Assembly: GCF_016862915.1 (NCBI RefSeq)
Contig: NZ_BONW01000022.1
Coordinates: 62,001-126,000 of the forward strand
Origin: Plantactinospora endophytica
Lineage (GTDB): Bacteria > Actinomycetota > Actinomycetes > Mycobacteriales > Micromonosporaceae
Direction of reading: 5' to 3'
Length of the DNA stretch: 64,000 nucleotides
Below the pieces are notes generated by a model. The model was not told the origin of the DNA and ran no database searches. It saw only the letters and a list, made by a program, of their open reading frames with translations. Shown here piece after piece: positions 18,806 through 36,785 of the stretch; position 1 is the first letter of the stretch; each line of letters starts with the position of its first letter. The position numbers were made by a program, and so were the translations under genes.

Positions 18806-20854
18806 TCAACCCTCCCGCAGTACGGCGCAGCCGCCGGACGGCAGCGACACCGATTCGACCCGGGCGCCGGTCAGCAGGTCCACTCCGGACACCGGCACGG
18901 TCTGTGTCGAGTCGGTGTGGTTGAGCAGGAACAGCCAGCTCGTGTCGGCGGTGGACCGGCGTACCGCCTCCACCCCGGCTGGCGCCGCCGGACAGGTCGG
19001 CTCGGCTCCCGCCTCCTCCGCCAGCCCGGCCAGCAGGTCGCGGTACGCGTCGTCGTCGAGCCGGGTGGAGAGGTACCAGGCCACCCCGTCGCCGTAGCCG
19101 TGCCGGGTCAACGCCGGCTGGCCGTCGAGGAGTCCTCCGGTGTAGCTGACCGACGGTGTCGCACCGGTCAGGCGTACGGTCTCGGCCCAGAGCCGGCCGG
19201 TGCTGCCGTCGGAGAGCGGCAGCCGGGTCGCCGGGTCGAGCGGATGGAACTCCTCCACCCGGATCCCGAGCAGGTCGCGCAGTGCTCCCGGATAGCCGCC
19301 GACCCGGACCCGGGCGTGTTCGTCGGCAACCCCGCTGAGGTAGCTGACCAGCAGGTGCCCGCCGGCTGCCACGTAGTCGCGGATCCGCGCCGCGTACCGG
19401 TCGGAGACCAGGTAGCGCGCCGGAAGCACCAGCAGGGCATACCCGAAGAGGTCGTCGCCGTCGGTGACGAAGTCGACGGTCCGGCCGGCCCGGAGCAGCG
19501 CCCGGTGTGCCGCCGCCACCTCGGCGGAATAGTCGAGCTGTGCCGAGGGCAGCACGGTGCCCTGCATCGCCCACCAGCTCGCGGCGTCCCAGGCGACCGC
19601 GACCGGCGCCTCCACCCCACCGGCGTCCATTTCGGACAAGCGGTCGAGCAGCGCGCCCAGCGACACCGCCTCGCGGAACGCCCGGCTGTCCGGGCCGGCA
19701 TGCGGCACCAGCGCCGAGTGAAACACCTCGGCGCCGCCCCGGGAGGCCCGCCACTGGAAGAACATCGCACCCCGGGAGCCCCGGGCGATATGCGTCAGGC
19801 TGTGCCGGGTCATCCGGCCCGGCTCCTTGGCGTGCATCCGGCCGGGGGTGAGGATCAGGTTCGGCGCGCTCTCCATCAGCAGCCAGGCCGGTCCACCGGA
19901 CTCGTCCCGGTGTGCCGGACCGGCGGCGGTCCGACCCGCCCCGCCGGTGCGCCGCTGGCCGTGCCGGGCCCAGGACCGGGCCAGGTCGGCGGCGAACGCG
20001 GTCTGCTCCTCCGCGCCCGGCCCGACCTCCCCCGGATAGTGGTCGATCGCCACCAGGTCCACCTCGGCGGACCACCGGGCGTGGTCCACCGGTACCCAGC
20101 CGCCGAGCACGTAGTTGGTGGTCACCGGTACGTCCGGGGTGGCGGCCCGGAGCAGGTCCCGCTGCTCGACGTACGCGCCGAGCAGTTCGTCGGAGAGGAA
20201 CCGGCGGAAGTCCAGCAGGTGGCTGGGATTGCCGAGATACTGGGTGGCCCGGGGTGGCCGGATCTGCTCCCAACCCGAGTAGTGCTGGCTCCAGAAGCTG
20301 CCGGTCCACGCCTCGTCGAGCCGGTCGAGGTCGCCGTAGCGGGCCCGCAACCAGGCCCGGAACGCGATCGCGACGTGCTCGCAGTAGCAGGTGGTGCCGT
20401 ACTCGTTGTGTACGTGCCAGAGCGCCAGCGCCGGATGGTCGCGGTACCGGGCGGCCAGTGCGGCGGCGATCTCCCGGGCCGCCGCCCGGTACGCCGGAGC
20501 GCTGGCGCAGTAGGTGTCCCGGCTGCCGTGGCTGAGCCGTACCCCGTCGGCGGTGACCGGCAGCGCGTCCGGGTGTCGCACCGAGAACCACGGTGGCGGG
20601 GAGGCGGTCGGGGTGGCCAGCGCCACCCGGATGCCGCCGTCGTGCAGCAGGTCGAGCACCCGGTCCAGCCAGTCGAAGTCGTACCGGCCGGGCTGCGGTT
20701 CGAGCCGGGACCAGGCGAAGACTCCGACGGTGACCAGGTTGACCCGGGCCCGGCGCATCAGCTCGACGTCGGTCGGCCAGACCTCCGCCGGCCACTGCTC
20801 GGGGTTGTAGTCCCCGCCGTAGCAGAGCCCGGTCAGACCCTTCGGCCAGTGCAC
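18806..20854 (-). CDS. GH42 beta-galactosidase (cytoplasmic)
   Basis: A 682-residue beta-galactosidase without signal peptide. The GTG at 20854 places the family N-terminus (LCYGGDYNPEQWPAEVW) at residue 10; the frame extends upstream only as noise. Acid/base Glu 151 is in WHVHNEYG and the nucleophile Glu 328 in WLLMESAPN. Cys 116, 156 and 158 fit the zinc site of GH42 enzymes. A Gly/Arg-rich insert (about 299-321) precedes the nucleophile strand. A trimerisation-like domain and a C-terminal beta domain follow. It is divergent from the GH95 gene with 73 bases between starts. In this setting it may remove galactose from imported xyloglucan or pectin side-chain oligosaccharides (inference). Confidence 0.94.
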   Translation of the reverse strand: MHWPKGLTGLCYGGDYNPEQWPAEVWPTDVELMRRARVNLVTVGVFAWSRLEPQPGRYDFDWLDRVLDLLHDGGIRVALATPTASPPPWFSVRHPDALPVTADGVRLSHGSRDTYCASAPAYRAAAREIAAALAARYRDHPALALWHVHNEYGTTCYCEHVAIAFRAWLRARYGDLDRLDEAWTGSFWSQHYSGWEQIRPPRATQYLGNPSHLLDFRRFLSDELLGAYVEQRDLLRAATPDVPVTTNYVLGGWVPVDHARWSAEVDLVAIDHYPGEVGPGAEEQTAFAADLARSWARHGQRRTGGAGRTAAGPAHRDESGGPAWLLMESAPNLILTPGRMHAKEPGRMTRHSLTHIARGSRGAMFFQWRASRGGAEVFHSALVPHAGPDSRAFREAVSLGALLDRLSEMDAGGVEAPVAVAWDAASWWAMQGTVLPSAQLDYSAEVAAAHRALLRAGRTVDFVTDGDDLFGYALLVLPARYLVSDRYAARIRDYVAAGGHLLVSYLSGVADEHARVRVGGYPGALRDLLGIRVEEFHPLDPATRLPLSDGSTGRLWAETVRLTGATPSVSYTGGLLDGQPALTRHGYGDGVAWYLSTRLDDDAYRDLLAGLAEEAGAEPTCPAAPAGVEAVRRSTADTSWLFLLNHTDSTQTVPVSGVDLLTGARVESVSLPSGGCAVLREG

Positions 20855-20891
20855 CCCGCCCGCCCTTCCCGGCGTCCCGCAACCGTTGCCG

Positions 20892-20921
20892 TTGACCTTT
20901 GTTTGGGCTCCCGCCAAAGTA
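20892..20921 (+). promoter_or_regulatory. Promoter-like site with an inverted repeat before GH95
   Basis: TTGACC (20892-20897) is a good -35 box. The following stretch carries TTTGTTTGG (about 20898-20906) and CCAAAG (20914-20919), an imperfect inverted pair overlapping the presumed spacer and -10. The ten bases ACCTTTGTTT also occur, in the opposite orientation, beside the operator next to the ROK gene (31843-31852 region). This links the two promoters to one regulator by inference. Confidence 0.5.
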
Positions 20922-20927
20922 GGCGGG

Positions 20928-23348
20928 GTGGATCTCGCTGTCAACGGCCTCGTCTCCACCACCCGGACCGACGACTGGGAGGCGGCCCTGGTCAGCGGCA
21001 ACGGCCGACAGGGCGCACTCTGCTACGGCGGCCCGACCGGCGTCCGGATCACCGTCTCGCACGAGCGGCTCTTCCTGCCCCTGAACCCGCCGCTGGACCC
21101 GCCGCCGACCGCCCGGATCCTGGACGAGCTGCGGGCGCTGCTCGCGGCCGGCGAGTACCGGCGGGCCGCCGCCCGGGTGGTGGAGTTCGCCGCCGAGCAG
21201 GATCCCGGGTACGCCGAGACCCGCTGGGTCGACCCGCTGGTCGGCGCCGCCACCCTCACCTGCACACCGACGGCCGCCGGCCCGGCAACCGGGTACCGAC
21301 GCAGCACCGACTTCGACACCGGCCTGGTCCGCCAGTACTGGCGACTGACCGAAGGCGAGGCCGATGCAGCCGAAGGCGAGGCCGGCGCAGCCGGGGACGA
21401 CATCGAGGTGGCCGGGGGCGAGGTCGAGGTGGCCGCGTTCGTCTCCCGCCCGCATGACGTGCTGGTGGTGCAGTTGGCCGGGCCGACGGGTTGGCGGGTC
21501 GGGCTCGGCCCGCTCGACGAGGAGCCGCCGGTGCCGATGGAGATTCGGGTCGCGCCGGACGGGCTGGGGCTGCGGGTGGACTTCCCCACCGCCACCGCCG
21601 GGCAGGTCACCGGGTACACCGTGACGGGCCGGCTGGTCGACGGGCGGCTCCTGCTGCTGCGTACCACTGTGGACGGCGTACCGTCGCCGGGGCCGGACCT
21701 GGCGGACCTGCCGGCGGACTTCGACGCGCTGCTGGCCGCGCACGTCGCCGTACACGGTGATCTGGTCGGTCGGGTGCGGTTGGACCTCGGTGCCGCGCCG
21801 GCCGCCCGGTCGGCGACCACCGAGGAGTTGCTACGGCCGTTCCGGCCGGGCGCGGCCACCGCCGGCACCCCGAACAGCGCCGCGCTGGTGGAGCGGCTCT
21901 TCGCGGCCGGCCGGTACGCGATCGTCTCCGCCTGCGGCGACCTGCCGCCGACGCTGCTCGGGGTGTGGAGCGGGACCTACCGACCGGCCTGGAGCGGCGC
22001 CTACACGGTGAACGGCAACCTGCCGGCCGCACTGGCCGCACTGGCGGTCACCGGAACGCCGGAGCTGACCACCCCGCTGTTCGACCTGCTCGACTCGGTC
22101 ACCGACGACCTGCGGGACAACGCCCGCCGGCTGTACGGCACGGGTGGCATCCTCGTCCCCGCGCACCTGACCAGCCACGGCCGACAGAACCACTTCGGTC
22201 CGGTCTGGTGCCAGACGTTCTGGACCGCCGGGGCGGCCTGGCTGGCCCGGTTCTACCACGACCACTGGTGCCACACCGGGGACCGGGCGTTCCTGCGGTA
22301 CCGGGCACTGCCGTTCCTGCGCCGGGCCGCCGAGTTCTACCTGGACTACGTGACGATCGGCCCGGACGGGCGGGCCCGGTTCGCGCCGTCGTACTCGCCG
22401 GAGAACACCCCGGCGAACACCGACTCGCAGGCGTGCCTGGACGCCACCATGGACGTCGCCGCCGTTGCCGACCTGCTGCGCAACCTGCTGGCCGAAACCG
22501 CTGCCCTGGGCGAGCCCGACCGGGCCGAGCCGCGCTGGCGGGCGCTGCTGGCAGCGCTGCCGCCGTACCGGATCGCGCCGACCGGGGAGTTGGCCGAGTG
22601 GATCGCACCGGACCTGGTCGACAACCACGCGCACCGGCACGCCTCGCACCTCTACCCGCTCTGGTACGAGCCGGATCCGGCCTTCACCGCCGATCCGGCG
22701 CTGCGCCGGGCGGCGGCGCTGACGGTGCGGCGTCGGCTGGCCTGGTGGCGGGGCGCGGAGTCGGACGAGATGGGGTACGGGCTGGCGCAGCTCGGCCTGG
22801 CGGCGGCCGGGCTCGGCCTGGCCGAGGAGGCGTACCAGACGGTGCTGCTGATGGCCGGCCGGTACTGGCGACCGAACCTGGTCTCCACGCACAACCGGGA
22901 CGCCATCTTCAACGTCGACGTCTGCGGCGGCCTGCCGGCGGTGGTCGCCGCGATGCTGCTGCGCAGCAGCCTTGTCCCGGCCGACGGACCGGCGGAAACG
23001 GCACGGCCGGCGGACGAGGAAACGCGACCGACGGACGAGGGAACGCGGCTGGGGGTCGAGAGAACGCGACCGACGGGCGGGGGCGCGCGGCCGGGTGTGC
23101 GGCCGGAGCCGGCGGTTCGGCTCGGCCTGTTGCCGGCGGTGCCCCGGGCCTGGCCGCGTGGTCAGGTCACCGGGTTGCTCGCCCGGGGGCCGGTGACGGT
23201 CACCCGACTCACCTGGACATCGACCGAGGTCGAAGCTTTTCTGCTCTCCCCGGCCGACCGGGTGGTCACCGTCGAGCTGCCCGGGAACACCCCGGTCCGG
23301 GTCGAGCTGGCCGCCGGCCGGACGTATCGACTGCGGTCGCGCCGTTGA
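20928..23348 (+). CDS. GH95-family glycoside hydrolase (alpha-L-fucosidase type), cytoplasmic
   Basis: An 806-residue enzyme without signal peptide. The GTG at 20928 directly precedes the N-terminal domain, with DDWEAALVSGNGRQGALCYGG and ERLFLPLNPP, which corresponds to the GH95 opening. The (alpha/alpha)6 barrel shows WSGAYTVNGNLPAALAALAV, the long GPVWCQTFWTAGAAWL helix, FAPSYSPENTP, and DNHAHRHASHLYPLW, the equivalent of the HRHxSHLY motif of GH95. Known members hydrolyse alpha-1,2-fucose or alpha-galactose; which one applies here is open. Residues about 690-723 form a charged linker of seven-residue repeats (ETRPTDE-like) encoded by 21-base repeats. The GH31 gene follows 100 bases later. 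Confidence 0.85.
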   Translation: MDLAVNGLVSTTRTDDWEAALVSGNGRQGALCYGGPTGVRITVSHERLFLPLNPPLDPPPTARILDELRALLAAGEYRRAAARVVEFAAEQDPGYAETRWVDPLVGAATLTCTPTAAGPATGYRRSTDFDTGLVRQYWRLTEGEADAAEGEAGAAGDDIEVAGGEVEVAAFVSRPHDVLVVQLAGPTGWRVGLGPLDEEPPVPMEIRVAPDGLGLRVDFPTATAGQVTGYTVTGRLVDGRLLLLRTTVDGVPSPGPDLADLPADFDALLAAHVAVHGDLVGRVRLDLGAAPAARSATTEELLRPFRPGAATAGTPNSAALVERLFAAGRYAIVSACGDLPPTLLGVWSGTYRPAWSGAYTVNGNLPAALAALAVTGTPELTTPLFDLLDSVTDDLRDNARRLYGTGGILVPAHLTSHGRQNHFGPVWCQTFWTAGAAWLARFYHDHWCHTGDRAFLRYRALPFLRRAAEFYLDYVTIGPDGRARFAPSYSPENTPANTDSQACLDATMDVAAVADLLRNLLAETAALGEPDRAEPRWRALLAALPPYRIAPTGELAEWIAPDLVDNHAHRHASHLYPLWYEPDPAFTADPALRRAAALTVRRRLAWWRGAESDEMGYGLAQLGLAAAGLGLAEEAYQTVLLMAGRYWRPNLVSTHNRDAIFNVDVCGGLPAVVAAMLLRSSLVPADGPAETARPADEETRPTDEGTRLGVERTRPTGGGARPGVRPEPAVRLGLLPAVPRAWPRGQVTGLLARGPVTVTRLTWTSTEVEAFLLSPADRVVTVELPGNTPVRVELAAGRTYRLRSRR

Positions 23349-23375
23349 CAGTTTGTTGGGTTACCAAAGAAACTA
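23345..23375 (+). promoter_or_regulatory. Promoter-like site with an inverted repeat before GH31
   Basis: A perfect TTGACA -35 box (23345-23350) overlaps the TGA stop of the GH95 gene. Behind it AGTTTGTTGG (23350-23359) and CCAAAGAAACT (23364-23374) form an imperfect palindrome. The layout, -35 box plus TTTGTT...CCAAAG, matches the site before GH95. A shared repressor is likely; the ROK protein is the best local candidate. Confidence 0.5.
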
Positions 23376-23448
23376 AAGGGAGTCCACCGCGCCGGCCGGC
23401 ACCGTCGGCGGCGCGCGGGATCCGCGTCCCGGGAGCCGAGGAGACCGT

Positions 23449-25794
23449 ATGCCGTACCGCCCGCCCCTGGTGCCGCACGAGACGTTCGTCGCCGACCCGC
23501 CCGAGCTGCCGGTCCGGGCGCCGGGCGAGCACGGGCTCTCCGCGCTGGCCCGGGCCGAGGTGCTGAGCACGGACGGCCAGGGCGTCACCCTCAAGGCGGG
23601 CACCTCGGACGGCGGTTCGCTCGCGGTCCGGATCACCGCCGCCGCCGAGGGCGTCATCCGGGTACGCCTCAGCGAGGACCCGCTGGCCAAGGGCCGGGCC
23701 ACCCGCGCACTGTCCCTGGTGCACCCGCAGCCCTACCAGGCCGAGGTACGCGTCGACGGCGACCGGGTACGCGTCGACGCCGGCGCGGTCGTCGCCGAAC
23801 TGAGCCTCGACCCGTGGCACCTGCGTTTCGTCGACCCGACCGGCACGGTACTGGTCAGCCAGAGCCGGGGCGAGCAGGACATCAGCGGTCGACTTCGCAC
23901 CCTGCCGTTCGGCCGGTCGCTTGTCGACGGCGCCGTCGCCGCGTACCACGAGAGTTTCGTCGCCCCCGGCGACGAGCGGTTCGTCGGGCTCGGCGAGAAG
24001 TTCACCCCGTTGGACAAGCGCGGCCAGCGGGCGCTGATGTGGAACTTCGACGCCTTCGGCAGCGAGTCGGACCGCTCGCACAAGAACATCCCGCTCTACC
24101 TGTCGAACCGGGGCTACGGCGTACTGGTCGACAGCGGAATGCCGGTCGAGTTCGACGTCTGCCAGTCCACGCACAGTTGCGTGCAGATCCTGGTACCGGA
24201 CGACCTGATCGACTACTACGTGATCGCCGGCCCGACCCCGGCCCGCATCCTGGACCGGTACGACCGGCTGACCAGCCGGCCGGCGCTGCCGCCGAAGTGG
24301 GCGTTCGGGGCCTGGATGTCGTCCGGGTTCTTCCGGGACAGCCAGGACCGGGTGCTGGAGCGGGCCCGGCGGATCCGGGAGCGTGGCATCCCCTGCGACG
24401 TGCTGCACCTGGACTGCTACTGGCAGGTCGCCGGGGCCTGGTCGGACCTGCGCTGGGACGCCGAACAGTTCCCCGACCCGGCCGGGATGCTGGCGACCCT
24501 GACCGAACAGGGCTTCCGGGTCAGCCTCTGGATGAACCCGTACGTGATGACCGGCAGCCCGCTGTTCGGCGAGGCGGCCGAGGCCGGCTACTTCCTGCGC
24601 CGGGCCGACGGCTCGGTCTACGTCGCCGACACCTGGCACGGCAGCCACCCGGCCGGCGGGATCGTCGACTTCACCAACCCGGCCGCGGTCGACTGGTTCG
24701 CCGGGCTGCTCCGGCCGCTGCTCGAACAGGGCGCCGCCGTCTTCAAGACCGACTTCGCCGAGGGCGTGCCGGCGGACGCGGTGGCACACAACGGGATGAC
24801 CGGGGTCGAGCTGCACAACGTCTACTCGCTGCTCTTCAACGACGTCGTCTCGACGGTCACCCGGGAGGTCGCCGGGCACGACCTGGTCTGGGCCCGGTCG
24901 TCGTACCTCGGTGGGCAGCGGCACTCGGCACAGTGGAGCGGCGACGTCAACGCGACGTACCCGGCGCTGGCGAGCACGTTGCGCGGCGGGTTGAGCCACG
25001 GGCTGTCCGGGGTGCCGTTCTGGAGCCACGACAGCGGCGGGTTCCACGGCACGCCGACGCCGGACCTCTACGTACGCTGGGCGCAGTTCGGGGCGTTCTC
25101 TCCGCTGGTCCGGTTCCACGGCACCACCAGCCGGCTGCCCTGGGACTTCCCGGCCGAGGCCGAACGGCTGGCGGTCGAGGCGCTGCGGCTGCGCTACCGG
25201 CTGATGCCGTACCTCTACTCGGCGGCGGTGGCGGCGGCCCGGACCGGGGCGCCGATGATGCGCGCCCTGCTGGTCGACTCCCCCGACGACCCGGCCGCGT
25301 GGACGGCGGAGCTGGAGTACCGGCTCGGCCCGGACCTGCTGGTGGCGCCAATGACCGGTCCGGAGAACCGGCGGCACGTCTATCTGCCGGCCGGGGACTG
25401 GGTGGACTTCTGGACCGGCGAGGTGCACGCCGGCGGTCGGCACCTGCGGGTGCACCGGCCGCTGGACCGGTTCCCGCTCTTCGTCCGGTACGGCGCGCTG
25501 ATCCCGGTGGCGCCGCCGGCCGACCGGGTCGGCGACGGCCCGTTCACCGACGTCACCGTGCTGAGCTTCGGGGCCACCGACGCCAGCGCGGTGGTGCACG
25601 ACGTCGACGGCGACACCACGATCCGGGCCGCCCGGTCGGGGGACGAGTTCCGGGTGGAGGTCGACGGACCGCTCGCGGTTACCGGCCTCGCCCTCGCCCC
25701 GGTCGACGGCGCCCGGCCGCCTAGGCGGCTGCTGCTGGACGGCTCCGCCACGGTCGCGGGAACGCTGGACGGACTACCCACCGTGCGGGGTTGA
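23449..25794 (+). CDS. GH31 alpha-xylosidase (YicI type), cytoplasmic
   Basis: A 781-residue family 31 enzyme without signal peptide. The nucleophile Asp 435 is in VFKTDFAEGVP and the acid/base Asp 499 in QWSGDVNATYP. Substrate-site strands include DVLHLDCYWQ (318-327) and SLWMNPY (359-365). The KTDF-G/A-E context and the N-terminal domain with FVGLGEKFTPLDKRGQ match alpha-xylosidases such as YicI rather than alpha-glucosidases. It would release terminal alpha-1,6-xylose from xyloglucan oligosaccharides; alpha-glucosidase activity cannot be excluded. ATG start follows GAGGAGACCGT. It lies downstream of GH95 and ends before a strong hairpin shared with the convergent MFS gene. Confidence 0.92.
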   Translation: MPYRPPLVPHETFVADPPELPVRAPGEHGLSALARAEVLSTDGQGVTLKAGTSDGGSLAVRITAAAEGVIRVRLSEDPLAKGRATRALSLVHPQPYQAEVRVDGDRVRVDAGAVVAELSLDPWHLRFVDPTGTVLVSQSRGEQDISGRLRTLPFGRSLVDGAVAAYHESFVAPGDERFVGLGEKFTPLDKRGQRALMWNFDAFGSESDRSHKNIPLYLSNRGYGVLVDSGMPVEFDVCQSTHSCVQILVPDDLIDYYVIAGPTPARILDRYDRLTSRPALPPKWAFGAWMSSGFFRDSQDRVLERARRIRERGIPCDVLHLDCYWQVAGAWSDLRWDAEQFPDPAGMLATLTEQGFRVSLWMNPYVMTGSPLFGEAAEAGYFLRRADGSVYVADTWHGSHPAGGIVDFTNPAAVDWFAGLLRPLLEQGAAVFKTDFAEGVPADAVAHNGMTGVELHNVYSLLFNDVVSTVTREVAGHDLVWARSSYLGGQRHSAQWSGDVNATYPALASTLRGGLSHGLSGVPFWSHDSGGFHGTPTPDLYVRWAQFGAFSPLVRFHGTTSRLPWDFPAEAERLAVEALRLRYRLMPYLYSAAVAAARTGAPMMRALLVDSPDDPAAWTAELEYRLGPDLLVAPMTGPENRRHVYLPAGDWVDFWTGEVHAGGRHLRVHRPLDRFPLFVRYGALIPVAPPADRVGDGPFTDVTVLSFGATDASAVVHDVDGDTTIRAARSGDEFRVEVDGPLAVTGLALAPVDGARPPRRLLLDGSATVAGTLDGLPTVRG

Positions 25795-25857: not shown

Positions 25858-27330
25858 TCAGTGGCGGGCCGGTTGGCGGAGCACCGTGCAGGCGACCGCG
25901 AAGGCGGCCACGAGTAGCCCGGCGGCCACCACCAAGGCGAGCCGGAACCCACCGGTCAGCGCCGCCGGCTGGCTCGCGCCGCCCGCCAGCAGTTCTCCGG
26001 TACGCCCGGCGGCGAGGGTGGCCAGCACCGCGATGCCGATCGCCATTCCGAGTTGCTGGGTGGTGTTGAACAGCCCGGAGGCGAGCCCGGCGTCGTCGGC
26101 CCTCGCCCCGGACATGCCCAGACCGGTCAGCGCCGGCAGGGCCAGCCCGAAACCGGCGGTCAGCAGCAGCACCGGCAGCAGGTCGGTGACGTAGTCGGCG
26201 TGCACCGGCAGCCGGGCGAGCAGCCCGAACAGCGCGGCGAGGAGTACCAGTCCGGCCAGCAGGACGTTCCGCTCGCCGTACCGGGCGTTGAGCCGGGCGG
26301 AGATGCCGAGCGACACGGCGCCGATGGTCACCGCCGCCGGCAGCATCGCCAGGCCGGTCTCGGCGGCGCCGTAGCCGCGTACCTGCTGGAGGTAGAGGGC
26401 GACCAGGATCTGGAACGCGAAGCAGGCCGCGACCATCAGCAACTGCACCAGGTTGGCTCCGGCGACGTTTCGGGAGCGGAGAATCCGCAACGGCATCAGC
26501 GGGGTGGCCGCGGTGGCCTGCCGGGCGACGAAGCCGGCCAGCAGCAGTACGGCGAGTCCGCCGAAGCCCAGGGTGGCCGGCGAGGTCCAGCCGCGCGACT
26601 CGACGCTGACCACGGTGTGCAGGCCCAGCCCGAGCCCTGCGGTGACCAGCAGTGCACCGAGGACGTCGGCTCCGGCCGCCCGGCCGAGTCCCCGATCCAC
26701 CGGCAGTACGGACCGGGCGACTGCCAGCGCCACCAGCCCGATCGGCAGGTTGATGAAGAAGATCCAGTGCCAGCTCAACGCGTCGGTGAGTACGCCGCCG
26801 AGCACCTGGCCGAGCGAGGCCCCGGCGGCTCCGGTGAAGCTGAACACCGCGATAGCCCTGGCCCGCTCTCTCGGCTCGACGAAGAGGGTGACCAGGATGC
26901 CCAGCGCGACCGCGGTCGCCGCCGCGCTGCCGACGCCCTGGAGGAAGCGGGCGGCGATCAGCACGGCCGGGGAGCCGGCCACCCCGGCCAGCACCGAGGC
27001 GCCGGTGAACACCGCCGTGCCGGCCAGGAACATCCGCCGACGGCCGAACAGGTCGCCGAGCCGGCCGGCGAGCAGCAGCAGGCTGCCGAAGGCGAGCAGG
27101 TAGGCGTTGACCACCCAGCTCAGGCCGGCGGCGGAGAAGCCCAGGTCGCGTTGGATGGCCGGCATCGCCACGGTCACGATGCTGCCGTCGAGGATGGTCA
27201 TCAGCGTCCCCGAGGCGATCACTCCGAGGGCGACCCACCGCCGTCGGTTCGCCGGCCCGCCGCCGGCCGGCGGCTCGGCCGCCTCTGATGCGGCAGCGGC
27301 AGGGATGGTGGAAGTGGAAGTTTCGGACAC
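25858..27330 (-). CDS. DHA2-family (EmrB/QacA-like) MFS drug exporter
   Basis: A 490-residue membrane protein with about 14 membrane segments. Motif D1-like LDGSIVTVAMPAIQRDLGFS, motif A GRLGDLFGRRRMF and motif C GAAGASLGQVLGG place it in the proton-driven DHA2 exporter group. The GTG at 27330 is supported by AGGAGG five bases upstream. An inverted repeat lies at its promoter. The MarR-type repressor gene ends 98 bases upstream on the same strand, the common arrangement of an efflux pump with its regulator. Substrates are probably hydrophobic or cationic toxic compounds; not determinable from sequence. Confidence 0.93.
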   Translation of the reverse strand: MSETSTSTIPAAAASEAAEPPAGGGPANRRRWVALGVIASGTLMTILDGSIVTVAMPAIQRDLGFSAAGLSWVVNAYLLAFGSLLLLAGRLGDLFGRRRMFLAGTAVFTGASVLAGVAGSPAVLIAARFLQGVGSAAATAVALGILVTLFVEPRERARAIAVFSFTGAAGASLGQVLGGVLTDALSWHWIFFINLPIGLVALAVARSVLPVDRGLGRAAGADVLGALLVTAGLGLGLHTVVSVESRGWTSPATLGFGGLAVLLLAGFVARQATAATPLMPLRILRSRNVAGANLVQLLMVAACFAFQILVALYLQQVRGYGAAETGLAMLPAAVTIGAVSLGISARLNARYGERNVLLAGLVLLAALFGLLARLPVHADYVTDLLPVLLLTAGFGLALPALTGLGMSGARADDAGLASGLFNTTQQLGMAIGIAVLATLAAGRTGELLAGGASQPAALTGGFRLALVVAAGLLVAAFAVACTVLRQPARH

Positions 27331-27372
27331 GCCGTCCTCCTGTCAGGTAGCACCGACAGGAGTGACCGTAGC

Positions 27373-28920: not shown

Positions 28921-30056
28921 GATCGTGAGTACACTCCCCGCTCGCCGAGGGCGTGGGCGAACCGGTTCGCGGCCAGGATCAGCACCAGCCCGACCACCGC
29001 CTTGAACAGCCCGGCCGCCGCGCCGTAGCCGTAGTTGCCGGTGGTGATGGAGTTGTAGTAGACGAAGGTGTCCAGCACCTCGGCGGCCTGCCGCCCCACC
29101 GCGTCGCGTTGCAGCATGAACTGCTCGAAGCCGACCGAGAGCGCGTCACCGAGCCGGAGGATCAGCAGCAGTACGATCACCGGCCGCAACCCGGGCAGCG
29201 TCACGTGCCAGAGCCGTTTCCACCGGCTCGCCCCGTCGACCGCCGACGCCTCGTAGAGGTGCGGGTCGATGGTGGAGAGCGCGGCCAGGAAGACGATGGT
29301 GCCCCAGCCGACGTCCTTCCAGACCGTCTCGGCGGTGACCAGCACGATGAAGGTGTCCGGGTTGGACATGATGTTCCACGGTTCGAGCCCGACGTCGCGC
29401 ATCTCCTGGGCGAGCAGCCCCGCCCCGCCGAACATCTGCACGAAGAACGTGACCACCAGTACCCAACTGAAGAAGTGCGGCAGGTAGACGACGGTCTGCA
29501 CGAAGCCGCGCAGCCTCGGCGAGAGGATGTTGTGCAGCATGATCGCCAGCACGATCGGCAGCGGGAAGTAGAAGACGAGCTGGAACGCGGTGATCGCCAG
29601 GGTGTTGCGAAGCGCGTCCCAGAACGCCGGGTCGCCGAAGAGCGTCTCGAAGTGGGTGGTCCCGATCCACGGGCTGTGCAGGAACGCGGCCAGCGGGGTG
29701 TCCCCGGCGTACGGGTTGTAGTCCTGAAAGGCGACCACGTTGCCGAGCGTCGGCAGGTAGTGGAAGACCAGCAGCAGCAGGCCGGCCGGGGCGACCATCA
29801 CCAGCAGCGGCCAGTCCCGGCGCAGCCGGGCCCGCAACGGCGCCCGGCCGGCCCGGCCGCGCCGCCGCCGGAACCGTCCGTGCCGGACCGGCGCGGAGTC
29901 GCGGTCGGTCCGGCCCACCCCGGCGGTCCCCCGGTCCGGCCCGCTGCCGGGGGCGGCCAGCCGGTCGGCACCGACCGTCGCCGACGGGTACCCGCCCGGC
30001 GGGCGGCTTCGGTCGTCGCCGGTGCCACCCGCCCGGGTCGTTTCGCGGGTACTCAT
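28917..30056 (-). CDS. Carbohydrate ABC transporter permease (LplB type)
   Basis: A 379-residue permease. After an unusually long Arg/Gly/Pro-rich N-terminal region (about 1-78, probably disordered and cytoplasmic) come six membrane segments. The region VVAFQDYNPYAG is an LplB-family signature and DPHLYEASAVDGASRWKRLW is the EAA loop. The start overlaps the binding-protein stop by four bases and the stop overlaps the next permease by four bases, so all three genes are tightly coupled. The N-terminal extension is longer than in typical LplB proteins (about 300 residues), so a later start cannot be excluded. Confidence 0.92.
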   Translation of the reverse strand: MSTRETTRAGGTGDDRSRPPGGYPSATVGADRLAAPGSGPDRGTAGVGRTDRDSAPVRHGRFRRRRGRAGRAPLRARLRRDWPLLVMVAPAGLLLLVFHYLPTLGNVVAFQDYNPYAGDTPLAAFLHSPWIGTTHFETLFGDPAFWDALRNTLAITAFQLVFYFPLPIVLAIMLHNILSPRLRGFVQTVVYLPHFFSWVLVVTFFVQMFGGAGLLAQEMRDVGLEPWNIMSNPDTFIVLVTAETVWKDVGWGTIVFLAALSTIDPHLYEASAVDGASRWKRLWHVTLPGLRPVIVLLLILRLGDALSVGFEQFMLQRDAVGRQAAEVLDTFVYYNSITTGNYGYGAAAGLFKAVVGLVLILAANRFAHALGERGVYSRS

Positions 30057-31732
30057 CGTCCGGCGTCGGCCAACGCCTTGGCGCGGAACTCGCGGGCCTC
30101 GTCGCCCCCGCCGTTACGCCACTCGCTGATGATCGTGTCGAGGTCGGAGATCGGTCGCCGTCCCCGGAGCAGGTCGGTGACCTTGTCGTCGGTCGGGACG
30201 AGGCTCGCCTTGTACCGGGCCGGCATCTCCAGCTTCAGTCCCGCCCAGGGATCCTTCTCCAGGAACTTCACCATCTCGTTGGAGTAGCCGAGCATGTCCC
30301 GGACGTAGGTCGGGGTCTGCGGATAGGGCTGCACCACCGGGCTGCGCCCGCTGATGAAGAAGTACTGGTTGACGATCTCCTTGAAGCCGAGATCGGTCTT
30401 CACCGGGCCGGTGGCGGTGCGGTTGTGGTGCTTGCCCTCCACCCCGTACTCGCGCAGGTCGAACTCCCTGGTGCCGAACGGCGCGGAGCACCAGTTGACC
30501 ACCCGCAGCAGTTCCTCGACCCGGGCCTTGCCCAGCCCCTTCTTGACGAAGGTGTACGAGATCGGGTTGTCGTCGCCCCAGACCAGCGGGTCGCCACCGG
30601 TGGCCGAGAAGATCGGTACGGGCTGGATGTTGAACCCGGGGGTGATCCGCTGCTGCTCGGCCTGCATCGTCTGCCAGGCGCCGGGACCGTCCTGGAAGAA
30701 CAGGATCTTCCCGCCCGCGATCAACTGTTTGGAGTCGGCGCCCTTGCTGGCGACCAGGTCCGGGTGGACCAGACCGGCCTGGTAGACCTTGGCCATGAAC
30801 TCGACGGACTGCTTGTATTCCGGGGTCTCGTACTTGAACTCCGGGGTGCCGTCCGGCTTCAGCCGCCAGCCGTCGTCGGTGCCCGGCACCTTGTGGAACA
30901 TCTGGACCATCGCGAAGATGTCGTTGAACGCCCAGACCCCCTTGGCGGGGTCGGTCACCTTCTTGCCGACCTCGAAGAGTTCGTCGATCGTCTTCGGGTA
31001 GGTCGCGCCGGCCGCGTCCAGCAGGTCCTTGCGGTAGAAGAGCGCCCACGGGAACGGACCGTCCTTCGGGCAGGGCACCGCCATCAGCCGCTCGTTCCAG
31101 AAGGCGTTCCGCCAGGCCCCGGCCGGGAAGGTGGCCAGCATCGGGTACGGGTCGATGCCGGCGCCCTTGAGGTGGTCGGTGAGGTCCTCGAAGAGCGCGG
31201 CGGTCGCGTCGGCGAACCGGGGCAGCTTGGAGACCTCCCACTCCGGTACGCAGAGCAGGTCCGGCACGTCGCGGGCGCCGAGCATCGCGTTGAGCTTGTC
31301 GGCGTACGTGTTGCCGTCCTGGACGCTGAAGTTGACCTCGACGCCCAGTTCCGCGTTGACGGCCGCCAGGTACTGGCTCTGGCCGAGTCCGGGCGGCGCC
31401 GGCCCCCAGGCCGGGGTCATCGCGCTGATCTGCTGGCCGCCGGCGCCGGGCTTCTCGGTGATGGCGTCGACCAGGCTGCTCGGGAACTCGGTGTAACCGT
31501 CCGGCACCGGGCGGGTGCCGACGATGCTCGGCTTGGGAATGCCCGGCGGCAGGTCCTTCTGGTTCGGCAGCAGGCCGGCGAGCCGGTCCAGGTTCTGCGC
31601 GTCGCTGGTGGAGGCCACCTCGCCGCCGCAGCCGGCGAGCAGGCCGCTGCCGACGGTGGCCGCGGCACCGAGGCCCACCAGGCTCAGGAAGTTCCTACGG
31701 TTGGTGGCGCTGCCCGGGCCGGTTGGTTCCAC
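30053..31732 (-). CDS. Extracellular sugar-binding lipoprotein (LplA type)
   Basis: A 559-residue binding protein for the Lpl-type importer. The GTG at 31732 is used because AAGGGAG lies six bases upstream; the longer frame would bury that site. Residues 11-35 (NRRNFLSLVG...LLAGC) combine a twin-arginine motif with a lipobox (Cys 35), so it is probably exported by Tat and lipidated. The mature part has the large family 1 solute-binding fold, with VEVNFSVQDGNTYADKLNAM and LFYRKDLLDAAGATYPKTID. Large size is typical for LplA, which binds oligosaccharides. The divergent ROK gene and its palindrome sit directly upstream. Confidence 0.92.
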   Translation of the reverse strand: MEPTGPGSATNRRNFLSLVGLGAAATVGSGLLAGCGGEVASTSDAQNLDRLAGLLPNQKDLPPGIPKPSIVGTRPVPDGYTEFPSSLVDAITEKPGAGGQQISAMTPAWGPAPPGLGQSQYLAAVNAELGVEVNFSVQDGNTYADKLNAMLGARDVPDLLCVPEWEVSKLPRFADATAALFEDLTDHLKGAGIDPYPMLATFPAGAWRNAFWNERLMAVPCPKDGPFPWALFYRKDLLDAAGATYPKTIDELFEVGKKVTDPAKGVWAFNDIFAMVQMFHKVPGTDDGWRLKPDGTPEFKYETPEYKQSVEFMAKVYQAGLVHPDLVASKGADSKQLIAGGKILFFQDGPGAWQTMQAEQQRITPGFNIQPVPIFSATGGDPLVWGDDNPISYTFVKKGLGKARVEELLRVVNWCSAPFGTREFDLREYGVEGKHHNRTATGPVKTDLGFKEIVNQYFFISGRSPVVQPYPQTPTYVRDMLGYSNEMVKFLEKDPWAGLKLEMPARYKASLVPTDDKVTDLLRGRRPISDLDTIISEWRNGGGDEAREFRAKALADAGR

Positions 31733-31828
31733 GGGGCGCTCCCTTCGATATCGCCGAACGGCCGGCGCCCGCACGGCACGCGGGAGACAAACCCGTTCGG
31801 TTGCTGGGTGGGTATGGGGTAGAGTTAG

Positions 31829-31844
31829 TTAGTCGGTTGACTAA
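31829..31844. promoter_or_regulatory. Palindromic operator between the importer operon and the ROK gene
   Basis: TTAGTC (31829-31834) and GACTAA (31839-31844) are perfectly inverted around GGTT. The flanks continue with further TTAG and CTAAACAAAG elements. It lies in the shared 135-base divergent spacer and is AT-rich in a GC-rich setting. ROK repressors bind such TTAGT/ACTAA or TTTGTT-type palindromes, so it is the likely operator for the ROK protein encoded next to it. Confidence 0.7.
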
Positions 31845-31867
31845 ACAAAGGTAATCGACGGTGATCG

Positions 31868-33418
31868 GTGCCACAAGACACCGGAAGCACGGCGCGGCGG
31901 GCGAGCGTGGCCCGGCGCGAGGCGGTGCGGCATGATGGCCGCATCGTCGGCAACGGCGCGACACCGGGCCCGGAGACCGACACGCGGGGAGCGGGGCTGA
32001 TCTTGTTCACGACGCAGACCGGGCCACAGCCGGCCGACCTCGCCGACGTACGGGCCACGAATCTCGCCGTCGTCCTGCGCTTCGTCCGGGCCAACGCGCC
32101 CTGCTCCCGGGCCGACATCGCCGCCTCCACGGGGCTGAACAAGGCGACCGTCTCCAGCCTGGTGGCCGAGTTGCTGGAGCGGCGCCTGGTCCGGGAGACC
32201 GGGCTGGCCGAGAACCGGATCGGCCGGCCGGCGACGATGCTGGTCGTCGACGGCGCCCCGTACGCGGCGATCGGCATCGAGGTGAGCATCGACGAGCTGA
32301 CCGTGGTCGCCGTCGACCTCGCCGGCACCGAGCTGCTCTCCTGGCGACGGGCCTTCGACGCCTCCGCCGCCTCCCCCGGCCGGGCGGTCAGCGCGATCGC
32401 GGCGCTCGCCGGCCGCGCGGTCAACCGGGTCGGCAACCAGCAGCGGCAGGTGCTCGGCCTCACCGTCGCGGTGCCGGGGCTGGTGGACGCGGGCGGAACC
32501 GTCCGGCTCGCCAGCACGCTCGGCTGGCGCGACCTCCCGCTCGGCGCCGACCTGCGGCGTGCCCTGCGTGATCCCGGCTACGACGTGGTGGTGGACAACG
32601 ACGCCAACCTGGCCGCCCTGGCCGAATACCGGCACGGCCCGTACGCCGGCACCGCCAACCTGGTGCACCTGACCGGCGGTGCCGGGCTCGGCGCGGGGGT
32701 GGTGGCCGACGGCCGGCTGCTGCGCGGCGGGCGCGGATTCGCCGGTGAACTGGGGCACGTACCGGTCGTATCGGACGGTCCCGTCTGCCCCTGCGGCCGG
32801 CGCGGCTGTCTGGAGGTGGTGGCCGGCATCCCGGCGCTGATCCGCCGGGCCCTGCCGGACGTGGCCGAGGACGGTCCGGTCACCGACTTCGCCCCGGAGG
32901 TCGACCGGATCCGGGCCCAGGCCCGCCGGGGCGACCGCCCCACTCTCGACGCGCTCGCCGAGATCGGCCGGCACCTGGGCCAGGGCGTGGCACTGCTGGC
33001 CAACCTGGTCAATCCCGAGGTGGTGCTGCTGGGCGGTTACTTCGCCACGCTGGCGCCCTGGCTGCTGCCCGCCGCCGAGACCGAACTGCTGGCCCGGACG
33101 CTGGCCCCGGAGGCCGGCGGTGCCCGGCTGCTCGCCTCGGCACTCGGCACCGGCGCGGCGGCGGCCGGCGGGGCGGCCCGGACCCTGGAGACCGTCGATG
33201 CGGGCCGGCTGCCGCTGCGCGACCCGGACCGCGCCGTCGCCCGCGATCCCGGCCCGTCCGCCCGGGTCTCCCGGAAGTCACCCACCCGGTCGAGCACCTC
33301 GCCCAGCGACCCGGAACCGGACCCGACCACCGACGCCACCGCCGCCGACCCGGACGCGACCGCCACTCCGACCACACCGCCCGCCGACGCGCCCCCGCTC
33401 CCGGCCGGACACCACTGA
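31868..33418 (+). CDS. ROK-family transcriptional repressor
   Basis: Up to 516 residues. A winged helix-turn-helix (about 65-112: NLAVVLRFVRANAPCSRADI, STGLNKATVSSLVAEL) precedes a ROK sugar-kinase-like domain (about 130-430). The domain carries ELGH (294-297) and the zinc motif CPCGRRGCLE (307-316) of ROK regulators. It should sense a mono- or oligosaccharide and control the divergent importer. The start is uncertain: GTG 31868 is the longest, while TTG 32003 has GGGGAG upstream and begins close to the helix-turn-helix. The last 80 or so residues are a Pro/Thr/Asp-rich tail not usual in the family. Confidence 0.9.
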   Translation: MPQDTGSTARRASVARREAVRHDGRIVGNGATPGPETDTRGAGLILFTTQTGPQPADLADVRATNLAVVLRFVRANAPCSRADIAASTGLNKATVSSLVAELLERRLVRETGLAENRIGRPATMLVVDGAPYAAIGIEVSIDELTVVAVDLAGTELLSWRRAFDASAASPGRAVSAIAALAGRAVNRVGNQQRQVLGLTVAVPGLVDAGGTVRLASTLGWRDLPLGADLRRALRDPGYDVVVDNDANLAALAEYRHGPYAGTANLVHLTGGAGLGAGVVADGRLLRGGRGFAGELGHVPVVSDGPVCPCGRRGCLEVVAGIPALIRRALPDVAEDGPVTDFAPEVDRIRAQARRGDRPTLDALAEIGRHLGQGVALLANLVNPEVVLLGGYFATLAPWLLPAAETELLARTLAPEAGGARLLASALGTGAAAAGGAARTLETVDAGRLPLRDPDRAVARDPGPSARVSRKSPTRSSTSPSDPEPDPTTDATAADPDATATPTTPPADAPPLPAGHH

Positions 33419-33659
33419 CCGACCAGACCGCACGGGCCGGGTAGGCACCGCAGGTCGAGCAGTCTCGCGCCGGCCGCCGGCCACTGACCAGCCGGGACTG
33501 TCGCCGCGACCAGGGCTGGCGGTACCGGTGGAGACCGACGTACGCCAATCCGTTCGGCGCAACCTCTTGACCCGTACGACGGCTGGTGGAAGCCTCGAAA
33601 TGCTCCCCCGTAACCTGCGGGAAACCGCTATCCACGGTGGAGCGTCTTTTCCCCGGCCG

Positions 33660-33740
33660 TCGAAGCGCTTCGAGCTTCCCGGGCTGTCGGCCGGGGCACC
33701 CGCTGCCGCTCCATCCCCCGCCGGATTCGAAGCGCTTCGA
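33660..33740. promoter_or_regulatory. Two identical 14-bp LacI-type operators before GH3
   Basis: TCGAAGCGCTTCGA, a perfect palindrome with central CG, occurs at 33660-33673 and 33727-33740, 67 bases apart. They lie 70-150 bases upstream of the GH3 start in the 391-base gap 33419-33809, which otherwise contains no gene. The spacing (about six helical turns) would allow looping. The LacI-family gene at the end of the same operon (36785) is the obvious binder, making this a feedback-controlled operon. Binding is inferred from form and position. Confidence 0.8.
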
Positions 33741-33809
33741 CTGTCGCCACCACCCCGGTCTCCACCGCCGCACGCAGCGCCAGTCGAAGATCATGGAAGG
33801 TGACCGACC

Positions 33810-36785
33810 ATGGGCGACGCCCCGTTCCGCGACCCCGAACAGCCACTCGACGTACGGGTGGCGAATCTGCTCGGCCAGCTCACCCGGGCAGAGAAGATCG
33901 CGCTGCTGCACCAGCACCAGGCCGCCGTACCCCGGCTCGGGATGCCGGCCTTCCGCACCGGTACCGAGGCGCTGCACGGCCTGGCCTGGCTCGGCCCGGC
34001 CACCGTCTTCCCGCAGGCGCTCGGGCTGGGCAGCACCTGGAATCCCGACCTGATCCGGGCCGTCGGGTCGGCGGTCGGCGACGAGGTGCGCGGGCTGCAC
34101 CAGAAGGACCCCACCCGGGTCGGGCTGAACGTCTGGGCCCCGGTGGTCAACCCGCTGCGCGATCCACGCTGGGGACGCAACGAGGAGGGCTACGCCGAGG
34201 ACCCGTGGCTGACCAGTTGGCTCGGCACCGCTTACGCCCGGGGACTGCGCGGCGACCACCCCGACTACCTGAAGACGGCACCGACCCTGAAGCACTTCCT
34301 CGGCTACAACAACGAGACCGACCGCTGCACCACCTCCAGCAACCTGCCGCCCCGGGTGCTGTACGAGTACGAGCTGCCCGCCTTCCGGGCACCCATCGCC
34401 ACCGGTGCGGCGGTGGCGGTGATGGCGTCGTACAACCTGGTCAACGGGCGGCCGGCGCACCTGAGTCCGCTGATCGGCACCGAACTGCGCCGGTGGACCA
34501 GTGACGAGGTGCTGGTGGTCAGCGACGCCGGAGCCGTCTCCAACATCGCCGGTGCGCAGGGCTACCACCCCGACCACCCGAGCGGTTACGCCGCCGCGCT
34601 GCGGGCCGGCATCGACAGCTTCACCGAGGACAGCGAGGACTCCGGGCCCACCGTCGAGCGGCTGACCGAGGCGCTGCGACGCGGGCTGCTGGACGAGTCC
34701 GACCTGGACACCGCCGTCCGACGGATCCTCGCCGTACGGTTCCGGCTCGGTGACCTCGACCCACCGGAGCGGAACCCGTACGCGGCGACCACCGCTGACG
34801 TGATCAACTGCCCGGCACACCAGGATCTGGCCCGGGAGGCGGCCCGGCAGTCCGTCGTGCTGCTCCGCAACGTGGCCCGGCCCGGTGTCGGGGCGCTGCT
34901 CCCGCTGGATCCGAGCCGGATCACCCGGCTGGCCGTACTCGGTCCGTTGGCCGACACGCTCTACGAGGACTGGTACAGCGGCACCCTGCCGTACGCGATC
35001 ACCGCCCGGGACGGGCTGGCCGCCCGGTTCGCCCCGGCGCGCACGGTGCAGCACTGCGGTGCGGACCGGATCGTGCTGCGTACCGCCGACGGCCACGTCC
35101 GGGCCGCCGCCGATCCGGAGGGTGCCGCCCTGCGCCTGCACGGCACGGCCGAGGGGGACACGGAGGCGGTCCCGGCGGAGGGCTGGTTCGAGGTCTTCGA
35201 CTGGGGCCAGGACGTCCTCGCGCTGCGCAGCGTCGCCAACGGCCGGCACGTCGGCGCCGACGACGACGGGCTGCTGGTCAACGACCGGCCCGGCCCGGGC
35301 GGCTGGATCGTCCGGGAGACGTTCCGGCTGGTCGACCGGGCGGCCGGCGACCGGGTGCTGCACCACCTGGCCAGCGACCGGTACGTCCGGGTCGGCCCGG
35401 ACGGTGCGCTCCGGGCCGACGCGGACGACCCCGCCGACGGCACCGGCTTCACCGTCGAGCTGGTCGGCGACGGTGCGGCCGAGGCGGCGGCGCTGGCCCG
35501 GGACGCCGACGTGGCCGTGGTGGTGCTCGGCAACCACCCGATGGTCTGCGGCCGGGAAACCGAGGACCGGGCCGACCTGGCCCTGCCGGCAGCCCAGGAG
35601 AACCTGCTCCGGGCGGTGTACGAGGCGAACCCGCGTACCGTGCTGGTGGTCAGCAGCAGCTACCCGTACGCGCTGAACTGGGCCGACGAGCACCTGCCGG
35701 CAATCGTCTGGTCGGCGCACGGCGGCCAGGAGTACGGCGCCGCGCTGGCCGCCGTACTCGCCGGGGACGCCGACCCCGGTGGCCGGTTGACCCAGACCTG
35801 GTACCGCGACGCGGCCGAGCTGCCCGACCTGTTCGACTACGACGTGATAGCCACCGACACTACGTACCTCTACCATCGGGGCACCCCGCTCTACCCGTTC
35901 GGCCACGGGCTGAGTTACGCCGACTTCGCCTACTCTGACCTGCGGCTGAGCGCGGACGAGGTGGACGCGGCCGGAGAGATCGAGGTCAGCGTGCGGGTGA
36001 CCAACGTCGGTTCGCGACCGGGCGACGAGGTGGTCCAGCTCTACACCCGGCAGCGGCGTTCCCGGGTCAAGCAGCCGCTGCGCCAGCTCCGTGGCTTCGC
36101 CCGGGTCAGCCTGGCCCCGGGCGCGTACACCACGGTACGACTTCGGCTCCGCGCCGCCGAACTCGCGCACTGGGACGTGAGCCGGGGCCGGTACGTGGTG
36201 GAGGACGCCCGGCACACCGTCGCGGTCGGCCGGTCCAGCGCCGACTTCGCGCTGACCGCCACCCTGGCGGTGCACGGCGAGCCGGTCCGCCCCCGCCAGG
36301 CACTGGACGGTCCACTGTGGGCGGCCGACCACGACGAGTACGCCGACACCGAGTCGCTGCCGGACGGCCCGGACGGTGCCGCCGTGGTCGCCCGGGAGGC
36401 CGGCGGCTGGATCCGGTTCTCCGGAGTGGACTTCGGTGCCGGAATCCGGGGCGTGGCCGCCCGGGTGGGCAACCGACGGCCGCTACCGGACGGGGCCGAA
36501 CTCGTGCTCCGGCTGGACGACCCGGTACGTGGCCCGGTCGCCGGCACGGTCACCATCCCGGCCACCCGTACCGGTGATCCCGAGCCCGGCACCGGCACCC
36601 ACACCGACGCGGCGTCGCCGGACCACGAGCCGACCCGGGAGGTGACCGGTCGCTGGCACGGCGGGGCGACCGGGGTACGCGATCTTTATCTGCTGTTCGA
36701 CGCCCCGGGCGCTACGGTGAGTTGGCTGACCTTCGAAGCTGGGGCGGACGGCGAGCGTACCGGGACGGGAACTGGAGGCGCCTAG
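33810..36785 (+). CDS. GH3 beta-glucosidase with fascin-like insert and C-terminal beta-sandwich module, cytoplasmic
   Basis: A 991-residue family 3 enzyme without signal peptide. The N-terminal barrel has KHFLGYNN (161-168) and nucleophile Asp 239 in VVSDAGAV. Most family members have SDW or SDC here, so the SDA form is slightly unusual. The second catalytic domain is interrupted at about 416-550 by a fascin-like beta-trefoil insert (FDWGQDVLALRSVANGRHVG, LASDRYVRVGPDG). A fibronectin-III-like domain (about 700-775) and a CBM6-like C-terminal module (about 830-985) follow. ATG at 33810 follows GAAGGTGACC. Its stop overlaps the LacI gene start by one base. Likely role: removal of beta-linked glucose or xylose from imported oligosaccharides. 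Confidence 0.93.
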   Translation: MGDAPFRDPEQPLDVRVANLLGQLTRAEKIALLHQHQAAVPRLGMPAFRTGTEALHGLAWLGPATVFPQALGLGSTWNPDLIRAVGSAVGDEVRGLHQKDPTRVGLNVWAPVVNPLRDPRWGRNEEGYAEDPWLTSWLGTAYARGLRGDHPDYLKTAPTLKHFLGYNNETDRCTTSSNLPPRVLYEYELPAFRAPIATGAAVAVMASYNLVNGRPAHLSPLIGTELRRWTSDEVLVVSDAGAVSNIAGAQGYHPDHPSGYAAALRAGIDSFTEDSEDSGPTVERLTEALRRGLLDESDLDTAVRRILAVRFRLGDLDPPERNPYAATTADVINCPAHQDLAREAARQSVVLLRNVARPGVGALLPLDPSRITRLAVLGPLADTLYEDWYSGTLPYAITARDGLAARFAPARTVQHCGADRIVLRTADGHVRAAADPEGAALRLHGTAEGDTEAVPAEGWFEVFDWGQDVLALRSVANGRHVGADDDGLLVNDRPGPGGWIVRETFRLVDRAAGDRVLHHLASDRYVRVGPDGALRADADDPADGTGFTVELVGDGAAEAAALARDADVAVVVLGNHPMVCGRETEDRADLALPAAQENLLRAVYEANPRTVLVVSSSYPYALNWADEHLPAIVWSAHGGQEYGAALAAVLAGDADPGGRLTQTWYRDAAELPDLFDYDVIATDTTYLYHRGTPLYPFGHGLSYADFAYSDLRLSADEVDAAGEIEVSVRVTNVGSRPGDEVVQLYTRQRRSRVKQPLRQLRGFARVSLAPGAYTTVRLRLRAAELAHWDVSRGRYVVEDARHTVAVGRSSADFALTATLAVHGEPVRPRQALDGPLWAADHDEYADTESLPDGPDGAAVVAREAGGWIRFSGVDFGAGIRGVAARVGNRRPLPDGAELVLRLDDPVRGPVAGTVTIPATRTGDPEPGTGTHTDAASPDHEPTREVTGRWHGGATGVRDLYLLFDAPGATVSWLTFEAGADGERTGTGTGGA

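Follow-up and report, generated by a model that had tools for sequence, protein, structure and literature searches.

A gene cluster with two operator types predicted to serve intracellular use of xyloglucan oligosaccharides in Plantactinospora endophytica

A candidate cluster for the intracellular use of xyloglucan oligosaccharides was analyzed in a 64,000-nucleotide stretch of the Plantactinospora endophytica genome (contig NZ_BONW01000022.1, positions 62,001 to 126,000), referred to here as the window. Genes were called from codon-position GC, domains were assigned by Pfam and NCBIfam scans (Pfam covering 20 genes from 14191 to 47000), and signal peptides and leaders were judged by eye from the N-termini. 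The cluster begins with a minus-strand gene for a β-galactosidase of glycoside hydrolase family 42 (GH42; 18806-20854; Pfam Glyco_hydro_42, 42M and 42C), followed on the plus strand by a GH95 gene of the α-L-fucosidase type (20928-23348; Pfam GH95) and a GH31 gene for a putative YicI-like α-xylosidase (23449-25794). On the minus strand lie genes for a DHA2/EmrB-type exporter of the major facilitator superfamily (MFS; 25858-27330; above the cut-off of TIGR00711) and a MarR regulator (27429-27917; Pfam), and then the genes of an ABC importer, encoding the second (27985-28920) and the first (28917-30056) permease, both BPD_transp_1 in Pfam, and a family 1 solute-binding lipoprotein (SBP; 30053-31774; Pfam SBP_bac_1). 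Three plus-strand genes complete the array, for a ROK-family regulator that is probably a repressor (31868-33418; Pfam ROK, 144 bits, plus a helix-turn-helix domain), a predicted GH3 exo-β-glycosidase (33810-36785; N- and C-terminal GH3 domains in Pfam and an SDA nucleophile motif) and a LacI-family regulator (36860-37879; Pfam LacI and Peripla_BP_3). Every gene family named in the first-pass annotation was present and in the order it gave; the LacI gene, which that annotation had placed within 18806-36785, falls outside this interval (open reading frame [ORF] 36722-37879, likely start near 36860).

The starts of the GH42, GH95 and LacI genes were inferred and give genes shorter than the longest ORFs, which extend to 21001, from 20886 and from 36722, respectively. 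At their full length, the GH42 and GH95 ORFs would overlap; with the likely starts near 20854 and 20928, the genes form a divergent pair, probably separated by a short promoter. In line with the prediction that all four hydrolases are cytoplasmic, no signal peptide was seen at the N-termini of GH42, GH95, GH31 or GH3. The SBP carries a twin-arginine/lipobox leader. An importer of "LplABC type" had been proposed; a family 1 SBP with two permeases was found, and nothing beyond that was supported. No ATPase gene for the importer was present among the annotated cluster genes, and no TonB-dependent outer-membrane transporter was detected by Pfam among the 20 scanned genes.

Two kinds of putative operator mark the cluster. 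The first is a 21-bp inverted repeat, TTWGTTNG-N5-CNAACWAA, found in the divergent GH42/GH95 promoter (20898-20918, two mismatches), upstream of GH31 (23352-23372, one mismatch) and between the SBP and ROK genes (31829-31849, two mismatches), where it overlaps the SBP/ROK promoter. With up to two mismatches, the 9.68-Mb genome of the strain (G000) contained 10 sites versus 4 for the reversed pattern, which served as the control for all operator counts. Apart from the three in the cluster, one site each preceded GH74, a GH12 gene (contig C30), a CBM2-GH12 gene (C42) and an LPMO10-CBM2 gene (C9); the remaining three lay at a GH19 chitinase gene, near a Roadblock gene and at a position without an assigned gene. 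The GH74 gene is unlinked to the cluster (G000:C26). Across the seven genomes of the genus set (G000-G006), 53 sites were found versus 9 with the reversed pattern, and 26 of the 26 sites with at most one mismatch preceded cluster, GH74, GH12 or LPMO10 genes. The box preceded GH74 in all seven members (with three mismatches in G005), and GH31 in the other six with one mismatch. Some boxed sites also face a second gene. One is a 488-amino-acid gene without a Pfam match that diverges from a boxed GH12 gene (L113, 4120-5586) and has relatives in G003 and G004. The GH19 chitinase site, with two mismatches near the gene start, occurs in two genus members (L116, 3926-5215, and L155) and may reflect chance or an extra target.

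The 21-bp box is probably bound by the ROK protein, because it overlaps the SBP/ROK promoter and because its half-sites equal those of the xylose operator of Bacillus subtilis. The operator of XylR, which PMC2873477 in its available part calls a ROK-family regulator, is given as TTAGTTTGTTTGGGCAACAAACTAA in the accessible text of PMC12034463. Its outer 8-bp half-sites recur in TTAGTTTG, before the strain's own GH74, and in CAAACTAA, before the GH74 gene of Nocardiopsis locus L022. The 8-mers are 9 bp apart in B. subtilis and 5 bp apart here, and the targets of the present box, unlike those of the B. subtilis operator, are xyloglucan-type genes.

The genome holds just two copies of the second kind, the 14-bp sequence TCGAAGCGCTTCGA, and both lie before GH3 (33660-33673 and 33727-33740). 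This sequence is an even palindrome with a central CG. LacI operators are usually even palindromes of 16-22 nt with a central CG, according to the accessible part of PMC4052901; against these lengths, the 14 nt would represent the perfect core only. The palindrome was present in 217 of 300 genomes of the bacterial family versus 14 of 300 for the reversed control, including genomes without a GH95 match, and was accordingly rejected as a marker of GH95 clusters. Twenty-two loci with this box were followed: four regions chosen for sites near GH31, two additional sites from two of the same genomes, and 16 others, which were obtained from 22 sites in nine genomes (six sites gave no locus, and three locus pairs overlap). 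The four GH31-near regions (L187-L190) hold the order GH3-LacI-SBP-permease-permease-GH31 with the box beside lacI, some 3.1-3.2 kb upstream of GH31, where it heads the SBP-permease-permease-GH31 operon. The two further sites precede GH12, and in the other 16 loci the box stands before GH3, GH31 or GH12, except that in L205 it precedes an SBP gene located after LacI. We infer that the LacI protein binds TCGAAGCGCTTCGA, since the sequence is an even palindrome with a central CG and adjoins lacI in L187-L190.

The cluster was traced beyond the genus through its GH95 gene. Relatives of GH95 (E up to 1e-60) were found in 67 of the 300 family genomes, 64 of them from other genera, and 20 neighborhoods were fetched from these 64, near the top of the list (two were passed over, one being a 3.9-kb contig) and above the weaker relatives of 33-39% identity. 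In three Nocardiopsis loci (L022, L023 and L024), a GH74 gene with CBM2 directly follows GH95. The GH74 protein of L024 scored more than 1000 bits against a solved GH74, those of L023 and L022 share 82% and 75% identity with it, and the leaders of L024 and L023 resemble signal peptides. Permeases, SBP and GH3 follow in L023 and L024; L022 continues differently, with dehydrogenase and acyltransferase genes. The LacI palindrome is exact before GH74 in all three and has one mismatch before GH3 in L023 and L024. Most GH74 enzymes characterized by the time of PMC4780118 were xyloglucanases, as its available text states. A two-mismatch ROK box also precedes a sugar-isomerase-like TIM-barrel gene (AP_endonuc_2) in L023 (2112) and L024 (7855).

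Taken together, the Nocardiopsis GH74 genes, the operators shared with unlinked GH74, GH12 and LPMO10 genes and an experimentally tested clostridial precedent make it very probable, as a prediction from sequence, that xyloglucan oligosaccharides are taken up and broken down in the cytoplasm by the products of this locus, as the first-pass annotation had proposed. Secreted, unlinked GH74 and GH12 endo-enzymes, helped by LPMO10, would cut xyloglucan outside the cell, and the SBP and two permeases, powered by an ATPase encoded elsewhere, would import the products. GH95 would then take off L-fucose (or L-galactose) and GH42 galactose, after which GH31 and GH3 would alternate from the non-reducing end to release xylose and backbone glucose. 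Through the 21-bp repeat, ROK is predicted to repress GH42/GH95, GH31 and the importer genes at the locus as well as GH74, GH12 and LPMO10 genes elsewhere, with xylose or a xyloside as the probable inducer; LacI would control GH3 through TCGAAGCGCTTCGA, probably in response to an α-xyloside such as isoprimeverose. The annotation's further statement that the complete set of genes lies at the locus did not survive, as the endo-enzymes are unlinked and the ATPase gene is not in the cluster.

Conservation of the cluster is consistent with an old core. All seven genus genomes carry GH42, GH31, MFS, MarR and two permeases (the G001 stretch stops before the SBP), and three of the seven carry GH95 in the locus. 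On a tree of GH42 and the permeases, the presence of GH95 requires three changes, and well-supported branches make two of these unavoidable. Because GH95 occupies the same place in other genera, its pattern within the genus is more simply explained by repeated loss. The full block of GH42, GH95, importer, ROK and GH3 was found in 16 of the 20 other-genus neighborhoods, so that the combination can no longer be called unusual, as it had been. Gene by gene, the permeases were present in 19 loci, GH42, SBP and ROK in 18 each, and GH3 in 17; GH31 was present in three, and LacI in the same three. The four exceptions to the full block were L068 (G040), with GH95 alone, L060, lacking GH42 in its stretch, and L063 and L071, which end early. 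No such cluster accompanied the GH95 relatives of Cellulomonas and Planctomonas (L025-L028). Of the 18 other-genus loci having the GH42-GH95 pair, 17 carry the ROK box between its two genes, and the LacI palindrome lay in the ROK-GH3 gap of 17 of the 17 loci holding GH3. Endo-enzyme genes beside the cluster also speak for xyloglucan: GH12 adjoins it in two of the 20 other-genus loci, both boxed, and a GH5 endoglucanase with CBM46 does so in 10, two of them with a ROK box before the gene (L075 was scanned with Pfam and the PDB, the other nine being its tblastn relatives). The core thus appears old, and GH31 with LacI can apparently sit inside it. Their joint presence in the core in the same three loci fits weakly with the stepwise assembly previously suggested. 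A transposase gene of the ISAZ013 type was seen between a permease gene and GH95 in L070 (11220-12872; genome G257).

The MFS/MarR pair does stand between GH31 and the importer and in that sense interrupts the locus. It is present in seven of seven genus members and in none of the 20 other-genus loci, and therefore does not represent a recent interruption in this strain. As far as seen, the pair is peculiar to the genus, which suggests a lineage-specific insertion, probably outside the pathway. The space between the two genes holds an inverted repeat at 27337, with arms of 10 bp set 6 bp apart and one mismatch. Elsewhere in the window, a tRNA-Thr predicted by ARAGORN (55816-55911) overlaps the end of a long ORF (53107-55971) with high third-position GC.

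The enzyme families were examined for substrate clues. GH42 scored 424 bits in Pfam; both glutamate motifs are kept in the window protein, and the motif HVHNEYG was found in 27 of 28 aligned relatives. GH31 scored 303 bits in Pfam, 589 bits against the NCBIfam YicI α-xylosidase model (PRK10658, NF007940; cut-off 606) and 444-446 bits against the YicI entries of the PDB. Its motifs KTDF and DCYW are present in the 10 aligned GH31 rows, and we take the kept residues to be the nucleophile Asp, the acid Asp and the Cys of the YicI pocket. GH95 is divergent (catalytic domain, 233 bits in Pfam), with 7kmq, the Xanthomonas xyloglucan fucosidase XacAfc95, as its best PDB match. Residues N376, N378 and D678 (numbered from 20886) align with the catalytic Asn, Asn and Asp that PMC8245568 names in its available part. 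The first of these is replaced by Asp in 22 of 25 aligned relatives, the three with Asn belonging to the genus of the window, and Asp is also found at this position in the solved fucosidase 8zbv. A Thr/His rule for telling L-galactose from L-fucose was dropped, because the accessible text of PMC8245568 describes a fucose-specific enzyme that bears the Thr.

GH3 had been called a β-glucosidase. Membership of the family stands, but the specificity is not proven, as the nearest curated models are β-xylosidases, all far below cut-off (best, the Xyl3A model, 455 bits versus 1250). The best PDB matches were also β-xylosidases (7zb3), isoprimeverose-producing GH3 enzymes were among the matches, and a CBM6-like stretch below the Pfam cut-off lies at the C-terminus. 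The protein is best described as a likely exo-β-glycosidase of uncertain sugar. A substrate call from the enzyme families alone was set aside as not decisive, GH3 being unassignable and the solved relatives of the SBP weak.

Several observations weigh against a xyloglucan function. GH95 is dispensable, being absent from the locus in four of the seven genus members. GH31 is missing from 17 of the 20 other-genus loci. A search of 16 of these 17 genomes turned up a GH31 relative elsewhere in every one (approximately 40-44% identity); no ROK box was found near these unlinked genes in the 18 loci returned. Neither kind of box lay within about 1.5 kb of GH31 outside the cluster, but in L187-L190 the LacI box is present farther upstream, as described above. 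The fetched Nocardiopsis stretches keep the ROK box but yielded no ROK relative. Outside the genus, the box preceded GH74 in only one of 12 genomes tested, with three mismatches. Within it, several sites with exactly two mismatches lack a gene of the expected kinds, among them the Roadblock and GH19 chitinase sites. GH74 occurs in 197 of the 300 family genomes, too commonly for its mere presence to prove much; neither LPMO10 nor GH12 is specific to xyloglucan; and GH3 appears closer to β-xylosidases than to glucosidases in searches.

These points bear on three other interpretations. The cluster might serve pectin side chains, with rhamnogalacturonan or galactan fragments debranched by GH42 and GH95. 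A gene for a PL11 rhamnogalacturonan lyase with CBM2 (14191-16476), the secreted enzyme in such a scheme, adjoins the cluster here and in G002-G005, and three of the 20 other-genus loci (L062, L064 and L065) have a GH53 endo-galactanase gene next to the cluster at its GH42 end, which fits galactan as well and also counts against xyloglucan. However, neither kind of operator lies upstream of PL11, which for this reason was left out of the cluster. The stretches fetched for G001 and G006 showed no PL11 gene by the cluster, and long other-genus stretches (L063, 13.9 kb; L024, approximately 7.9 kb) gave no PL11 catalytic match. The view beyond the genus is narrow here, since of 18 other-genus stretches with GH42, 16 stop within 1.3-2.3 kb of that gene, too soon to reveal a PL11 neighbor, and only L063 (13.9 kb) and L071 (4.5 kb) reach further. 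As a YicI-like GH31 is not required for pectic galactan and the operators are common to GH74 and GH12, a pectin function is considered very unlikely.

A general cellulose/β-glucan or xylan regulon handling mixed oligosaccharides, with GH3 as a β-xylosidase, would agree with the ROK box before LPMO10-CBM2 and GH12, with the Xyl3A-type relatives of GH3, with the xylose-operator half-sites and with the GH43-AbfB gene that the box of the C42 GH12 gene faces on its other side. But all 26 of the best boxes in the genus precede cluster, GH74, GH12 or LPMO10 genes, and the GH95, GH42 and GH31 debranching enzymes would be needless for cellulose or simple xylan, which leaves such a regulon most improbable. 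Nor is it at all likely that two systems share the neighborhood, one a ROK-controlled importer of galactosides and fucosides and the other a LacI-controlled β-glycoside gene, GH3. The operator before GH3 does differ from that before the rest, and of the 17 other-genus loci with GH3, 14 lack lacI next to it; in all 17, however, GH3 adjoins ROK and the importer. GH12, GH74 and GH31-operon genes likewise have the LacI box in front of them, and both regulons therefore point to the same polymer.

Within the favored xyloglucan interpretation, a further proposal is put forward tentatively, with the odds somewhat against it. In actinomycetes of this family, two non-overlapping repressors may read different steps of xyloglucan use, ROK, with its XylR-like half-sites, acting on endo-enzymes, import and debranching, and LacI, through an α-xyloside intermediate, on the backbone step (GH3, joined in relatives by GH31 and GH12). 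The GH95 clade, with its Asn-to-Asp change in most members, may form a subfamily of its own that differs in mechanism or specificity. Among the literature matches listed, judged by title and opening of the abstract and with subscription journals mostly outside reach, none described an actinomycete xyloglucan regulon with these regulators or operators. The operators outline a regulon precise enough to be tested and provide a marker by which xyloglucan use could be recognized in the genomes of a large bacterial family; they also connect LPMO10 and GH12 enzymes, which lacked a known target, with a single polymer.

Comparison with known systems, as far as the available parts of the published accounts extend, placed the locus closest to that of Ruminiclostridium cellulolyticum (Gal42A, Xyl31A, Glu3A, SBP2458 and TMD2456/2457; PMC4780118), whose GH42, GH31, GH3 and SBP were tested experimentally. 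The SBP of that locus binds XXXG with nanomolar affinity. Both systems have GH42, GH31 and GH3 enzymes that are cytoplasmic (here by prediction), a family 1 SBP with two permeases, no ATPase gene in the cluster and a GH74, here predicted to be secreted, that is encoded elsewhere. They differ in that R. cellulolyticum has cellulosomes and an AraC-type two-component system, whereas free enzymes and ROK and LacI regulators, with nothing of the AraC type, are found here. GH95, in the core of most fetched other-genus loci, is a further difference; α-fucosidase genes occur in some clusters related to that of R. cellulolyticum (Fig. 12 legend of PMC4780118), and the distant clusters of Fig. 12b could include actinomycetes. 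The Xanthomonas XyGUL (GH74, GH31, GH35 and GH95; PMC8245568) likewise debranches with GH95 and GH31, and its XacAfc95 is the closest solved relative of the present GH95, but it relies on TonB-dependent transporters and GH35 where an ABC importer and GH42 occur here. The xyloglucan ABC locus of Anaerocellum bescii, Athe_2052-2057 (PMC12710961), and AxuABC-XylS (PMC8579813) share an ABC importer with a cytoplasmic GH31 and resemble the second locus of relatives (L187-L190); they have AraC-type regulators, with GH42 and GH74 elsewhere. Sequence and regulon evidence give the xyloglucan interpretation good support, and the locus would work like the clostridial one, with different regulators, an added GH95 and free endo-enzymes.

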